The notes beneath the pieces were generated by a model, which was given only the letters and a program-made list of their open reading frames with translations, searched no databases and was not told the origin of the DNA. A stretch of DNA of 64,000 nucleotides from Syncephalis plumigaleata. Lineage: Eukaryota; Zoopagomycota; Zoopagomycetes; Zoopagales; Piptocephalidaceae. Shown piece after piece: positions 38,881-63,575 of this stretch. The stretch is taken from contig JAIXMF010000016.1 of NCBI GenBank assembly GCA_025201365.1, positions 1-64,000 on the forward strand, written 5' to 3'. The translations under genes and the position numbers were made by a program. Within the stretch, counting starts at the first letter, position 1, and the number at the start of each line of letters is the position of its first letter.

Positions 38881-38886
38881 TATAAA
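38881..38886 (+). promoter_or_regulatory. TATA box of the micro-exon gene
   Basis: TATAAA followed by TCAAGC, 194 bases upstream of the ATG at 39,080. The intervening leader is strongly pyrimidine-rich (TACTCTACTCTACTAC type), as in highly expressed fungal genes. The position is plausible but no start site is mapped. Confidence 0.55.
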
Positions 38887-39079: not shown

Positions 39080-42000
39080 ATGAAGTTCTCTGCCGTTCTC
39101 GCTATTGCCGTCGCCGTTGTCGCTCTCACCAGTCTGGTCGCCGTTGAAGCCAAGCCCACTAGGATGCGTCGTCGTGGTATGTCACAGGAACAACAAGAAC
39201 AATGACGATAATGGACACTAGCTGATTAATTAATGATTGCTCGATAGCTGGCAAGTCTACCATTTGACCACAATGTCCCATGTATTAACCATGCTGTATC
39301 ACTATTTGTACATTTATTCCGTCAATAGTTGGTATGTTGTCAGTGTAATAATGATCCCATTCAATGTGCTAACCGTAATATAATCATGCTCAATCCTCAT
39401 ATGTGTGCGTGTGTGTGTATTCCAATAGTCGAACGTAGGTTTGCCGATAAATAAATAAACCACTTGACATGCTACTAATCGTATTACCATATCGCCACGG
39501 TACATGGATCAATAGGCCGTAAGTAGTAGCCATGCCATGCTGACCATACCATTCAATGAGCTAACCATTCATATGGAATTATTCCACAAATAGGTGGTAC
39601 GTATGACTACTATGTCCGTATCGATTGATGTACTAATCGTAACCTATTGTTTCATTGTTTACCGATGATTACCGATAGCTCGTAAGTTCATGTATATCAA
39701 ACGATTGTTTTGACGTGCTAATCACGCTATAATGTTTATTACACATATTTTTTTGTTAGCTCAAGACAGTAAGCAGGTTTATTGACTACTGCAAGCATCA
39801 TACTAATTGTGATATAAATCAAATCATACGTGGTTTCATTTGGAAGTTGTAAGTTACCATTGTTATTGTCATTATGATGTACTGATTATAATATGGCACT
39901 TAATCCACGTATGCTCCTGTATGATAGCAAGTAAGTTGTCATTCTGACCACAATGAATGAGATACTAATTATACTATGGCGTATGATCCACACCTGTTCT
40001 TGTACGATAGGCTGTAAGTCACCATTCTAACTGTAATGAGCGTGGTACTAACTACGATACGGCACACGATCCGCGTACGCTTATGTATGATAGCTCGTAA
40101 GTCATCATTCTGATTGTCATTAATAATGTACTAATTATAACATGACATATGGTCCACGTATGATTATGCTTAACAGCTCGTAAGTTACCATTCTAAGTAT
40201 GACGTGCGCTATACTAATTACAATATAATCTACGATTCATTTGTGATTAACAGAATGTAAGTCAGCATTCTAATCGTAACATTTAACATGCTAAAGACAA
40301 CCTGGTACACGATTTGTCCATGGCTATACTCAATAGGGGGTAAGAAGTCAACACTCTAGTCACAACAGATAATGCGCTAACGATGATGTGTGCCACACGA
40401 TTTACACGTGATTATTTGCAATAGGCTGTAAGTTAGCACGCTGATCACAATACACACAATACGCTAACGGTGATGTTATACGCAATCCACGTATGTTCAC
40501 ATACAATAGAATGTAAGCTAATATCATTATTGCGAGATGTAGTACGCTAATGACAAATGACGCTCGATCCACGTATGACTATGCATAACAGCTGGTAAGT
40601 TGACGCTAGTTTACAAGTAATAATTTACTAACTACCTTGTGGTACACGGTATGCGTATGATTATGTGTAACAGGCTGTAAGTTACTACTTGACTGTAGCC
40701 TATAAGTGTACTAATTATACTATGGCACACGATCCATATGTTCCTATATGATAGGGCGTAAGTAATCATTCGGATTGTACTGAATGGGTGCTAACCACGA
40801 TATGACACATGCCCTGCATATCCTTGCGTATGATAGGACGTAAGTAAGCATTCTGACTGCGATGAATGAGGTATTAACTATGATATGACTCACGATCCAC
40901 GTATGTTGTTGTATGATAGGAAGTAAGTTACCATTTTAGCTGTAATGAGCGTGGTACTAATTATGATATGCCATGTGATCCTCGTATGTTTGTATATAAC
41001 AGTTTGTAAGTCATCAATATAATTGTAAGGAATGAGTACTAATACCAATGTGGCACATGATCCTCGTATGTTTGTATATGATAGATCGTAAGTAATCATT
41101 CTGACTGCAATGAATGAGTGTACTAATTGTAGCGTGGCACATGATTCCGTGTATGATAGAAAGTAAGTTATCATTTTAGCTGTAGCCTATGCGGTACTAA
41201 TTATAGCGTGTTACACGATTTTCTTATGTTTTTGTATGATAGTATGTAAGTGATCATTCTGACCGTAATGAATAAATGGAGTACTAATCATCCTATGGCA
41301 CACGATCCACATATGTCTGTGTATGCTAGTGGGCAAGTTAGCATTTTGGTTTCAACCTATAGTATACTAATCTTAGTATGCCATACGATCCACCTCTGTT
41401 CCTGTATAATAGTTCGTAAGTAATCATTCTGGCTGTAATGAGCGTGATACTAATTACAATATGACAAATGGTTCGCCTATATTCTTGTATGATAGGCCGT
41501 AAGTTACTATTCTGGCTGTAATGCATGGATGTACTGACTACAGTATGGCATATGATCCACGTATGTTCTCGTGTTATAGAGCGTAAGTTAACATTTTGAC
41601 CGCAATGAATGGCGTACTGACTACAGTATGGCACATGATCCACGTATGTCTGTGTATGATAGGTCGTAAGTTAACATTCTGATTGTAATGAATGAATGAT
41701 ACTAACTACGATATGACACACGATCCCTGCATGTTTCTGTATATCAGCCTGTAAGTTGCCATTTTGATCGTAATGTATTAATGTACTAATCACAGCATGG
41801 CATACGATCCACCTATGTTCTTGTGTTATAGAGCGTAAGTTATTGTTCTGACCGTAATACACGATGTACTAACTACTGTGTAACACATGATCCACGTATG
41901 TTTCTGTATGATAGAATGTAAGTTAACATTACTATTGTAATGCATGTATGGGCTAATTATAATATATATCTTCGTGTACAATAGGCCGTAAGTAATTGTT

Positions 42001-42730
42001 CTGATCGTAATGAATGGATGTACTAATTACACTATGGCACACGATTAACATACGTTCTCGTATGAAAGGGCGTAAGTTATTACTCCACTTGTAACCTATG
42101 TCATACTAACCCCACTATGGTACATAATTCATATATTTTTGCATACGATAGGCCGTAAGTCATCATTCCAGTGGTAATGCGTGGATGTACTAATCACAAT
42201 ACGGCATGCAATTCATGTCTGCTTGTCTATAACAGGCTGTAAGTGATCATTTTGGCCGTAATGAATGGATGTACTAATTATACTATGACACACGATTAAC
42301 ATACGTTCTTGTATGAAAGGTGGTAAGTTATCACTCTAGTTGTAACCTATGAGGTACTAATTGTGATATGGCTCACGGTCCACATACGTTCTCGTACAAA
42401 AGGAGGTAAGTTACCATCCCACTTGTAACCTATGTCATACTAATCCCACTATGGTACATAATTCATATATTTTGCATACGATAGCACGTAAGTCATCATT
42501 CCAATGGTAATGTGTGGATGTACTAATCACAATACGGCATGCAATTCATGTCTGCTTGTCTATAACAGATTGTAAGTGATCATTTTGGCCGTAATGAATG
42601 ATGCGCTAACGACTATATGCCACATTATTCCCGTATTCTCTTGTATAACAGCTTGTAAGTTACCATTTCAATCGTCATCTACGATATGCTAATTACACTA
42701 CAGTCCAGTTTAAACGAATGATAGGAATAA
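39080..42730 (+). CDS. Secreted peptide precursor encoded by 45 exons, 39 of them 3 nt long
   Basis: Exon 1 (39080-39176) encodes a signal peptide starting MKFSAVLAIAVAVVAL, then KPTRMRRR. Then come 3-nt exons starting at 39248, 39329, 39516, 39594 and 39679, with longer exons 39429-39434 (6 nt) and 39760-39768 (9 nt). A 2-nt exon at 39847-39848 follows. Single-codon exons in phase 0 start at 39928, 40011, 40094, 40177, 40254, 40337, 40425, 40510, 40592, 40674, 40755, 40837, 40920, 41003, 41085, 41160, 41243, 41330, 41413, 41496, 41580, 41663, 41748, 41832, 41915, 41985, 42069, 42152, 42236, 42320, 42403, 42485, 42569 and 42652. Exon 42725-42733 carries GAA and stop TAA. Joined, the coding bases total 237 with no internal stop: 78 residues, coding only 6.5% of the span. 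Dibasic sites after MRRR and VVERR suggest Kex2-type processing to a cysteine-free peptide of about 40 residues beginning APQDI and ending VEHILE. No family recognised. Every intron has a donor, a branch-like site and an AG, but splicing is unproven. Confidence 0.8.
39849..42724 (+). repeat. Array of 35 related introns of about 80 nt, each separated by one codon
   Basis: Introns 9 to 43 of the micro-exon gene. Each unit is about 83 bp: GTAAGT donor, CATTCTGA-like motif, TAATGAATG, branch site TACTAATTA, TATGGCACACGATCCA-like motif, then GTATGATAG acceptor and three exonic bases. Lengths run from 67 to 85 nt. The units are recognisably homologous but diverged; introns 1-8 upstream keep the splice signals but not the shared body. 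Introns 36-37 and the start of 38 are closely repeated as introns 40-41 and the start of 42 (offset about 333 bp). The spread of units could be by tandem duplication of intron plus codon, by gene conversion, or by intron insertion. Confidence 0.85.
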
Positions 42731-42733
42731 GCG

Positions 42734-42785
42734 GTAAGTAATAATCTACAATAATCATACCCATACTAATCCATTATGATTACAG
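42734..42785 (+). other. 3'-UTR intron of the micro-exon gene
   Basis: A 52-nt intron with a GTAAGTAA donor, an ATACTAATC branch and a GATTACAG acceptor. It begins three bases after the stop codon, too close to the stop to be a typical trigger of nonsense-mediated decay. The final exon from 42,786 is 3' UTR in the full-length form. If exon 1 were joined directly to it, the frame would add EQDKDIIK and stop. Confidence 0.65.
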
Positions 42786-42939
42786 AACAAGACAAGGACA
42801 TCATCAAGTAGATATTATAGGTATTCAAGTCAAGAATGGATTGGTGCAAGTCCCTCATTTAGTGTCCATGCCATTCAAGTCATTATTCCTTGGTACAACA
42901 ACAACAAGTATATCTACAAGATCATTTAATTATTTATTG

Positions 42940-42945
42940 AATAAA
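42940..42945 (+). terminator. Polyadenylation signal AATAAA
   Basis: AATAAA in an AT-rich stretch 154 bases into the last exon of the micro-exon gene. The SNAPC4 gene converges on it from the other side and stops at 43,097. Confidence 0.5.
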
Positions 42946-61865: not shown

Positions 61866-63575
61866 GAAATAATGTTTTTATTGACCAATAAAGAAAATTA
61901 ACAATTTATACATCAGTCGATAATGGGGAGTGAAAATTTACATTTAAGGCATCGCATAACCATTGCCACTTGTGACCAAATGTCGAAGTAGACGAAAGCG
62001 TTAACGCTGTGCGATATTTTGCTCGTATAATATTCTGTAATGTATAGGACCATGAGTTGAATATATGTTGGTGATCAGACGGTTTGTCATTGTAGATGCT
62101 GGCTATACGAGTGCTGTGTATGGCCCACAGCGCGCTAATGATAGATATATGGTTAGTAATACTGGCTTTGCCCGAGTGTAGGGTGTAAGAAAGTGTGACG
62201 ATTGACTTCCAATTGAAATCTACTGACGGAGAAATTGATAATCGTGCTAGTATGTTTGTCCAAAACTGCTGAACTGGAGGGCATGACCAAAACGAATGCT
62301 CTAGGGTTTCATTGGGATGTTGACAACGTGTACAAGGAACAATAGCGTTAGCCCACTTGGACACCTTCGCACCGCTCCAAATTCCTTTGTTGTTGAGCAG
62401 CCACATGAAGGATTGGAGTTTTGGTGAGATTGCTGGGTTAGCTATCCGTTTCCATAATTGCTTGGGATCTACCGATGGATCGATAGTTGAGTGATGGGTA
62501 GCTTTTAACGATTGGATTGACTTCCTACTGAGGTTAGCGGTAAACGACTCGATTGGCTGTGCGTTAACAATGAGTAGTTTGTGGATAGCGTCTTGCCATT
62601 TAAGAGGAGGTTGTTCGCCTGCTTCCATGAATCTCTCTTTGATGTTTTGAGGAATTATGAGCTTCCTGTTCCCGAGGTGTTTCGCAACACCTTTGTGGAA
62701 AGGCGATGATGAAGGATTAATGCGGTATTGGTTGTGGGACTCGTTCCAAGTGAAGAGATCGGACATGGATGTAACATTGTGTCTTCGAGCGGACGTACCT
62801 GCCTTAACTGGTTTGCCTGCGTCTGTTGTTATGATACACTCGAAAGGTAGAGCTAGTATGGTTTGAGGATCGAGTTTTGCGATGTCGGGTTGTATCGAAC
62901 CACCAATTGCTGACCACGCCATCAATTTATCACTCCATGGAGAGGATAATCTGTTGTTGAGACGGCACTTGTAGAACGAGTTGAGGAGAAAGGCGTACGG
63001 TTGAAAGCCTGCCTTGGATAGGGTTTGCTGTAGCAGATCTCTAGCCAGGTAGCTCCAGGGAGGGGCTGACGGCTCGAAGACTCTTTTGAACCATTTAGTG
63101 AGTAGACATTGAGCTTGTATAATTGGTGGCAAGAGGCCAAGACCTCCTTGAATCCTTGGTTGCATTATCTGCTCTAGCGATACTCTGGCTTTCTTACCTC
63201 GCCAAATAAAGGAGCGCATCATTGAATGAAGAGATGGTATTGTAGTGCTGCTCGGGGCAGCGACATGTGATGCGAACCAGAATTTAGAGAGAATAAAAGA
63301 GTTGAGTAAGAGGATTCTACCTTTAACTGATAGATCTCGCTCTCGCCATGAGTCGATACGTTTAGCAGCCGAGTTTAGAATGAGTTGTTGTTGATGGTCG
63401 ATAGCGATTTTTCCTTTGGCGAAATAAATGCCTAGGTATCTAAACGGCTCGTCCCATCGTTGCGAGGAGAAAGGTATCGTGCCTGGTGTGTTCGGGAGGG
63501 CTAGAGTGAGGGACTTGTGTTCATTGATTTTTGCATCGCTAGCTTTTTGGTGAAGGAAAAGGCCTTTTTGCAAGG
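61866..63575 (-). mobile_element. 5'-truncated LINE (non-LTR retrotransposon) insertion
   Basis: A 1.7-kb insertion flanked by an exact 18-base target-site duplication. The element reads leftward. It begins inside the reverse-transcriptase C-terminal region (5' truncation, as usual for target-primed reverse transcription) and ends at left with a short A-rich 3' end (CAATAAAAACATT on the minus strand). The single large frame is intact. An exact duplication and an intact frame argue for a recent insertion. It lies between the CCCH gene and the last gene, and interrupts neither coding region. Confidence 0.85.
61906..63573 (-). CDS. LINE reverse transcriptase, C-terminal part (5' truncated)
   Basis: About 555 codons, open to the 5' junction. 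The thumb region reads FRYLGIYFAKGKIAIDH and ERDLSVKGRILLLNSFILSK, then FIWRGKKARVSLEQIMQPRI and QGGLGLLPPIIQAQC. The C-terminal zf-RVT-type domain has PKLQSFMWLLNNKGIW and CTRCQHPNETLEHSFWSCPP, a C-x2-C ... H ... C zinc-binding arrangement. The fingers, palm and YxDD catalytic site, and any endonuclease, are missing because of the 5' truncation. The nearest relatives would be L1/Tx1-like LINEs; the clade cannot be fixed from this part alone. Confidence 0.88.
   Translation of the reverse strand: MQKGLFLHQKASDAKINEHKSLTLALPNTPGTIPFSSQRWDEPFRYLGIYFAKGKIAIDHQQQLILNSAAKRIDSWRERDLSVKGRILLLNSFILSKFWFASHVAAPSSTTIPSLHSMMRSFIWRGKKARVSLEQIMQPRIQGGLGLLPPIIQAQCLLTKWFKRVFEPSAPPWSYLARDLLQQTLSKAGFQPYAFLLNSFYKCRLNNRLSSPWSDKLMAWSAIGGSIQPDIAKLDPQTILALPFECIITTDAGKPVKAGTSARRHNVTSMSDLFTWNESHNQYRINPSSSPFHKGVAKHLGNRKLIIPQNIKERFMEAGEQPPLKWQDAIHKLLIVNAQPIESFTANLSRKSIQSLKATHHSTIDPSVDPKQLWKRIANPAISPKLQSFMWLLNNKGIWSGAKVSKWANAIVPCTRCQHPNETLEHSFWSCPPVQQFWTNILARLSISPSVDFNWKSIVTLSYTLHSGKASITNHISIISALWAIHSTRIASIYNDKPSDHQHIFNSWSYTLQNIIRAKYRTALTLSSTSTFGHKWQWLCDALNVNFHSPLSTDV

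Follow-up and report, generated by a model that had tools for sequence, protein, structure and literature searches.

A gene family of Syncephalis plumigaleata with long runs of predicted single-codon exons and putative secreted, diversifying peptide products

Introduction

The micro-exon genes (MEGs) of schistosomes have a first exon that encodes a signal peptide. They are described as consisting mainly of short symmetric exons of up to 36 base pairs (bp), as occurring only in schistosomes, and as encoding proteins that are exposed to the host and that splicing is proposed to vary, with a signal-peptide exon in the first position hinted at for MEG-3.1 (PMC8293314). In aphids, the bicycle genes are presented as fast-evolving putative effectors with many small exons (about 17 on average), the internal ones almost all of phase 2, and a megacycle gene as combining >100 microexons with a protein of about 2000 amino acids (aa) (PMC9168663), which by our own arithmetic gives a mean exon of up to some 60 nucleotides (nt). 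Ultra-small exons are reported as a 1-nt exon in Fusarium CYP621A, where it is supported by RNA, and in Arabidopsis APC11 (PMC12940212) and as a 3-bp exon in Drosophila homothorax (PMC7392893), and the Kex2-processed repeat proteins of fungi (KEPs) are described as processed secreted precursors (PMC7329392, PMC6339444). Here we analyze a gene of Syncephalis plumigaleata, a fungus whose genus is characterized as mycoparasitic and zoopagomycotine (PMC10386755), in which 34 consecutive codons each appear to occupy an exon of their own. It lies in a stretch of 64,000 nt (the window), bases 1 to 64000 of contig C68 (JAIXMF010000016.1; 534,121 bases), and its relatives were sought in 32.6 Mb of genome sequence (G000).

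An earlier note on this DNA had proposed a single gene for a secreted protein with dozens of single-codon exons. That proposal is supported by uninterrupted copies of the joined exons, by a second array, by the composition of the triplets, and by an excess of residue-changing differences; it can also be extended, from one gene to a large family with intronless members and from a gene structure to codons that diverge faster than the introns around them. Gene structure, family, codon nature, and the residue-changing excess are taken from the sequence, and on that footing we consider it very likely that the gene belongs to a large protein-coding family and that its variable C-terminal part is encoded one codon per exon. 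Its product would be a pre-pro-peptide that is probably secreted, dibasic-processed, and diversifying.

Structure of the window gene

The locus was parsed by dynamic programming that scored only donors, branch sites, and acceptors; the reading frame was not used. Together with features read directly from the sequence, the parse gives the following layout.

38881..38886, + strand: TATAAA box, read directly, common to many paralogs (intronless ones included); putative promoter element
39080..39176, + strand: exon 1, 97 nt, with the ATG, putative signal peptide MKFSAVLAIAVAVVALTSLVAVEA, and RRR (frame-blind parse)
39177..42785, + strand: span of the 44 introns, 52 to 97 nt, each with a donor, a branch-like site, and an AG acceptor (parse)
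39248..39848, + strand: micro-exons 2 to 9 (3, 3, 6, 3, 3, 3, 9, and 2 nt) plus introns, encoding AVVERRAPQ.. across split codons (parse)
39928..42654, + strand: exons 10 to 43, 34 single-codon exons in a row with introns of 67 to 85 nt between them (parse, pattern matches, and codon-position composition)
42725..42733, + strand: exon 44 (GAATAAGCG), 9 nt, with GAA as the last codon, TAA at 42728 to 42730, and 3 nt of 3' untranslated region (UTR) (parse)
42786..42945, + strand: terminal exon, 3' UTR, up to the AATAAA at 42940 to 42945 (read directly)

This frame-blind parse returned the structure drawn in the earlier note, with 44 introns of 52 to 97 nt, 39 exons of 3 nt, and exons 10 to 43 as the claimed run of 34 consecutive single-codon exons. 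Besides the 39 exons of 3 nt, the 43 internal exons include two of 9 nt, one of 6 nt, and one of 2 nt; 42 of them thus measure 3, 6, or 9 nt. The joined frame comprises 78 codons plus TAA (MKFSAVLAIAVAVVALTSLVAVEAKPTRMRRRAVVERRAPQDIQALLNGANLAGDEFIKYWFASVPSNAGAAVEHILE), which bears out the 237 bases, the 78 residues, and the stop at the end of the frame claimed before, the TAA lying inside exon 44. Exon 1 ends in phase 1 and codons are split over micro-exons 2 to 8, until the 2-nt exon 9 (39847 to 39848) resets the phase to 0; whole single codons are found only from exon 10 on.

Donors of the 44 introns are GTAAGT (35), GTATGT, GCAAGT, and GTAAGC (2 each), and GTAGGT, GTACGT, and GTAAGA (1 each), and the acceptors are TAG (30), CAG (10), and AAG (4). 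When paired units are compared, mismatches amount to 7/240 in the CTAA of the branch site, which was partly selected by the parse, versus 256/3926 across the remainder of the upstream intron interior. The window contains 24 matches to a strict version of the pattern (GTAAGT-N25..50-CTAAY-N25..50-AG-NNN-GTAAGT), all of them within the array, versus 0 in 100 dinucleotide shuffles; the genome contains 1,439, versus 6 for the reversed pattern (individual positions were available for about the first 100 of the 1,439). In 255,818 bases made up of the window and 20 loci, an exon length of 3 nt gave 219 strict matches, any other length between 0 and 15 nt at most 9, and the reversed control none. A chance origin of the array was rejected on the shuffles and the reversed pattern.

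Coding nature of the array triplets

Judged by the uninterrupted copies, by the match of a second array to an uninterrupted gene, and by their stop-free, codon-like composition, the array triplets are codons. The first of these lines of evidence comes from paralogs (L029 to L033; loci, contigs, and proteins are cited by our L, C, and P numbers) in which the coding part is intronless, with L029 encoding the deposited protein P0121 and L032 encoding P0127. The 25 bases obtained by joining the end of exon 1 to exons 2 to 7 are found exact and uninterrupted at C223:1619860, C318:148543, C318:1235666, and C374:19625, and with a single difference at two further places (six in all), the reversed control giving 0; the exact copies pin down six splice junctions with single-base precision. 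Exon 44 joined to the terminal exon, TAAGC..AACAAGACAAGG, likewise has 15 uninterrupted copies in the genome; 4 match exactly, and none has more than 1 mismatch. Upstream of the ATG, homology extends across the TATA box in four of five intronless loci (561 bases in L040, 392 in L041, and shorter stretches in L037 and L038), the fifth (L039) having only 71 upstream bases in common, next to the ATG. This suggests that in most of these loci the gene stayed where it was while introns were gained or lost. Intronless copies with conserved AVVERRAP-type DNA were also seen in L014, L015, L050, and L051; the frame that starts at the ATG of L014 and L015 gives this DNA a different reading (deposited as P0139), and L051 has ATA instead of ATG.

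The second line of evidence is the array L036, reached via the pattern matches on C1, where 72 introns were parsed and 61 of the 71 internal exons measure 3 nt. The 14 exons after introns 50 to 63 (thirteen of 3 nt and one of 6 nt) encode LDLFGTIAFEKKQKD, which is identical at 12 of 15 positions to LDLFGAAAFEKRQKD, a sequence encoded without interruption in L043 (C318:1455923); the score is 63, and 0/5000 shuffles scored above 40, a figure uncorrected for the match having first been spotted by eye in the joined translation. An earlier stretch of L036, consisting mostly of single codons (ADEEHWIHDYIYRIEKDSA...), is similar to AAEQPWIQDYIVRVRKKSA in L043 (0/5000 shuffles as good) and also resembles L045 (0/5000) and L047 (5/5000), with the same proviso. 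Growth of arrays by single-unit tandem duplication alone was rejected, as it leaves this residue-by-residue match to an uninterrupted gene unexplained. The match suggests that intron gain, or intron loss via spliced RNA, was probably also at work besides unit duplication, in either direction.

L036, together with L048 and L049 (C1:1411600-1420500, minus strand), represents a second gene family (MELSADNNNNNN...) whose product does not have the look of a signal peptide. This family exists in two forms, an array of single-codon exons and uninterrupted copies (L042 to L045 and L047), and by eye a ATATCAAC-type leader just upstream of the ATG is common to the two families. A single intron family common to both was also considered, as were introner-like elements, near-identical intron copies in unrelated genes; the similarity is only weak: between 32 introns of the window array and 22 chosen L036 introns, the median core identity is 0.620 versus 0.592 for shuffles that keep the branch site, and 25% of the pairs exceed the 95th percentile of the shuffles.

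The composition of the triplets was evaluated in 12 nonredundant loci, after dropping the near-identical L018, L019, and L027, the partly parsed L023, and L025, for which the parse failed. None of the 271 array triplets is a stop codon, versus 10.3 expected from the overall composition and 18.6 from that of the introns; five triplets (in L013, after a 2-nt exon) are out of phase 0, and the remaining 266 are likewise stop-free. The bias by codon position carries the signal: the frequencies of G in the first position (0.46), T in the first position (0.08), and a pyrimidine in the third (0.80) compare with 0.44, 0.04, and 0.82, respectively, in four intronless paralogs after codon 32. With the codon-position frequencies of these four paralogs as the yardstick (L030 was left out as a near copy of L031), phase 0 has a log-likelihood of +64.6 bits, whereas the other two phases have -416 and -414; letter shuffles give -274 (standard deviation, 27), for a z of 12.4. 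In the window alone, the observed value is reached by 2/5000 shuffles.

A large family of array genes and intronless paralogs

Searching the genome with the joined 78-residue protein, the query favored by the earlier note, uncovered a large family, with 150 places scored among 163 candidates (the window's own counted), the matches lying mainly in the leader exon. Homologues of the 3' end were scored at 40 places among 208 candidates. The organization in the family is one of a constant leader and constant ends enclosing a variable middle. Twenty of the 150 places were examined at length, and 15 of these bear arrays (L009 to L013, L016, L018, L019, L021 to L024, and L026 to L028), the longest being that of L010, in which there are 83 introns and 73 single codons follow one another; L018 is a near copy of L016, and L026 and L027 are near copies of each other. 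The parse was run on 17 of 22 start sites, the other five (L014, L015, L017, L020, and the first L027 site) being omitted because no more than about 310 bases separate them from their 3' anchor, too few for an array, and it succeeded at 16 of the 17 sites having room before that anchor. With no use of the frame, eight of the 17 (the window, L009, L010, L011, L012, L016, L018, and L024) keep an open frame up to a stop in the penultimate exon. L019, L021, and L028 are open in near-optimal parses that lie 0.5 to 1.6 score units away and were chosen with the help of the frame, and L022 is open by hand if its 9-nt exon uses an earlier TTAG acceptor, the end then being a TAA in a 6-nt exon.

Several loci have peculiarities of their own. 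In L023 (C193), a long stretch in the middle was not parsed while both ends look intact, and the locus is possibly interrupted by an insertion. In L028 (C68:264200-274100), two exons of 9 nt are neighbors; the first contains an in-frame TAA, and by hand reading the frame opens when it is skipped. L035 (C1:2472800-2476300, minus strand) is a diverged relative. Its exon 1 encodes four related stretches with RR between them, three of which share the sequence DHVPPAAFRSLE; then come 16 tiny exons, of which 12 measure 3 nt, and the family 3' end. The RR-separated repeats would fit a release of peptides. Some family regions are present twice in near-identical or identical form, once on a short contig and once on a long one, such as C220:4122-4430 and C318:1455923-1456231 or L014 (C374) and L015 (C223), and these are either duplicated segments or uncollapsed haplotypes.

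Protein searches, which were sensitive only to shared 5-residue words, recovered 18 S. plumigaleata models, one further NCBI entry, and four JGI proteins in their wider form and no homologue in another named species. The four JGI proteins (P0137, P0138, P0140, and P0143) carry a similar leader, suggesting that other species may have the family as well.

Divergence of codons and introns

The window gene and L009 have 44 introns in the same order with a median identity of 0.938 (32/44 at 0.90 or above), and yet 13 of their 34 single codons are not the same; in 9 of the 13 the change involves two or three bases, and in 12 it alters the residue. Phase-0 units of 12 loci were then combined into 60 pairs, with each unit used once and both flanking introns required to be at least 80% identical; many of the pairs come from the window-L009 comparison and hence are not fully independent events. 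The triplets differ at 45/180 positions (0.250) versus 553/9,500 (0.058) in the flanking introns, a divergence about four times faster in the codons. In the 27 pairs whose flanks are on average at least 95% identical, the figures are 14/81 (0.173) versus 82/4,247 (0.019). The residue is altered in 23 of the 24 differing pairs, and just one of the 37 pairs with the same residue shows a silent difference. A broader count, which takes in split-codon units and pairs formed inside either of two near-identical loci, gave 86 pairs, 0.236 versus 0.063, and 31/32 residue-changing differences. A local mutation hotspot finds no support in the introns, where mismatches near the exon show no such rise over the rest of the intron. 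The simplest reading of these sequence comparisons is strong diversifying selection on the codons.

The codons might, alternatively, only seem fast, with gene conversion homogenizing introns between paralogs and no selection for codon change. The window-L009 pair, with its highly similar introns in unchanged order around codons that often differ at two or three bases, speaks for this. Old codons, however, should have gathered silent changes as well, and these are limited to the one same-residue pair in 37 and one of the 24 differing pairs, so that we hold homogenization to be rather unlikely.

The distribution of changes within codons has a shape of its own. The pairs with 0, 1, 2, and 3 changed bases number 36, 7, 13, and 4, versus 25, 25, 8, and 1 under independent sites, while random codon pairs, if different, would have 1, 2, and 3 changes in 20, 44, and 36% of cases. 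This spread and the 23/24 residue-changing differences hint at a further idea, which we put forward tentatively and with rather low confidence, namely, that diversification operates at the level of the codon, with single codons as heritable cassettes between conserved intron ends that are swapped, added, or lost whole between units. One route for such exchange might be a switch of template at the motifs conserved in acceptors and donors; new peptides could then arise in frame, codon by codon, and finished versions could become fixed as intronless genes via spliced RNA.

Proposed splicing, product, and function

For splicing, secretion, processing, and biological role we infer the following from the gene's layout. 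Each intron of about 80 nt has a complete set of signals (donor, branch site, and acceptor), and the spliceosome would recognize introns singly, by intron definition, because a 3-nt exon is hardly recognizable as an exon. Introns would be removed stepwise, each removal adding one codon to the growing exon. By eye, exon 1 encodes a putative signal peptide (MKFS, a hydrophobic stretch, and VEA), and this leader recurs at the 150 scored places. The product is predicted to be secreted via this putative signal peptide and cut at RRR and RR, sites likewise judged by eye, by a Kex2-type protease, releasing a short mature peptide that would differ between paralogs and comprise about 40 residues in the window product (predicted peptide, APQDIQALLNGANLAGDEFIK). 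The window product matched 0 Pfam families; L010 had only a subthreshold hit (E, 0.17) and L043 none. The mature peptides may act on host fungi, with an arms race driving their diversification. Since all units of the array consist of one intron and 3 nt and keep the same phase, duplication, deletion, or skipping of a unit would add or remove exactly one residue and leave the frame intact.

The same regularity would allow the single-codon exons to be real but optional, different messenger RNAs including different subsets and one gene giving rise to a population of related peptides. Any subset of the 3-nt, phase-0 exons of the window array preserves the frame, and in L028, by hand reading, dropping the 9-nt exon with the in-frame TAA also keeps it, a near-equal parse with a 3-nt version being open. 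Against this stand the strong splice signals throughout the window array and the L036 stretch LDLFGTIAFEKKQKD, which is matched residue by residue by its uninterrupted paralog, as fits full inclusion there; we consider optional inclusion unlikely.

Evidence against the proposed gene and remaining alternatives

A number of observations weigh against the one-codon-per-exon gene. With the composition kept per codon position, only 2.0 stops are expected in the triplets (P of none, 0.14); the caution voiced earlier, that a stop-free run alone is weak evidence, was right. A codon model from nine long open reading frames (ORFs) of the window is negative in every frame (frame 0 being the best), and its z is 0.4 under position-preserving shuffles; it proved a poor yardstick, and the codon-position frequencies of the intronless paralogs took its place. 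The frame of L036 shifts between the two matching stretches, near doubtful 2-nt exons, and again at a 1-nt exon near the 3' end, and searches returned no uninterrupted copy of the variable part of the window gene or of L010, an empty result that is uninformative alone. Across the family, only 8/17 start sites gave the open frame without frame information. L013 has its stop in the terminal exon, L026 and L027 have none within the stretch read, frame shifts occur in L019 and L022, early stops occur in L021 and L028, L023 is unparsed in the middle, and L025 was not parsed at all. Among deposited proteins, the joined window protein matched only six S. plumigaleata models, mainly via the leader; none of 23 deposited proteins was recognized as an array product, in what was not a systematic comparison; and some read through intron 1 (P0136).

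These points have to be set beside two further explanations. In the first, the array is one large intron with a tandem repeat, with exon 8 or 9 joined directly to exon 44 and no triplet ever entering the messenger RNA. The array introns are indeed alike (median identity, 0.68 versus 0.57 when shuffled), and duplication could yield the constant spacing. We nevertheless regard this as highly improbable: coding composition is present in one phase only, the 271 triplets contain 0 stops, 23/24 differences change the residue while the introns change little, and the L036 triplets encode a homologous protein. One long intron or a plain satellite was rejected on the phase-specific codon composition and the L036 match. 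A degenerate satellite or pseudogene array of formerly functional exons, to which some damaged-looking copies (with the in-frame TAA of L028, the unparsed middle of L023, and the different frame of the intronless L014 and L015) might point, is likewise highly improbable, given the loci open to a stop without frame information (the window, L009, L010, L011, L012, L016/L018, and L024) and a residue-changing excess that indicates selection.

Other features of the window

A 4-hydroxyphenylpyruvate dioxygenase gene in the same window has two coding blocks and one ordinary intron of 76 nt, and it matches an S. plumigaleata protein with 100% identity. To the eye, an ORF of 555 residues on the minus strand (61906 to 63573) is similar to the C-terminal portion of the polyprotein of a non-LTR (long terminal repeat) retrotransposon. 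Rfam gave 0 hits at gathering scores in the window, and ARAGORN gave 0 genes there.

Implications and comparison with known systems

If the array genes are spliced as predicted, the spliceosome removes >80 introns from one small transcript with three bases between most neighbors, and the array genes would test how far intron definition can go and how small an exon can be. The codon would be a unit that is duplicated or lost without a frameshift, tying gene structure to peptide evolution in a protein that seems able to change residue by residue. Gene finders seem to miss such genes, which suggests that the secretome of S. plumigaleata, and perhaps that of its relatives, is underannotated.

Among the open-license PubMed Central papers listed in our searches, judged by titles and abstract openings, none described a gene with several consecutive 3-nt exons, and nothing relevant was listed on single-codon, consecutive, or tandem micro-exons or on Syncephalis exon structure. 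In recursive splicing through zero-length exons, an acceptor adjoins a donor and stepwise removal regenerates a splice site; here, in contrast, three bases would stay after each step and carry a codon. The ultra-small exons of Fusarium, Arabidopsis, and Drosophila show that 1 to 3 nt can be spliced, with one such exon per gene, whereas here dozens follow one another. Compared with KEPs, the window product has RRR and RR but a single mature region and no near-identical repeats, although its relative L035 does have RR-separated repeats in exon 1. With the aphid bicycle genes it has many small exons and fast evolution in common, but the window array is of phase 0, not phase 2, and no animal protein was among the protein search matches. 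With the schistosome MEGs it has in common the mostly tiny symmetric exons; its own product is predicted to be secreted. The window gene is fungal, however, with 39/43 internal exons of 3 nt and 34 in a row; MEG exons are described as measuring up to 36 bp (PMC8293314), and no homology to MEG proteins was seen in the protein searches, at their 5-residue-word sensitivity. The array genes thus apparently represent a new, extreme form of the micro-exon gene plan that is independent in origin.

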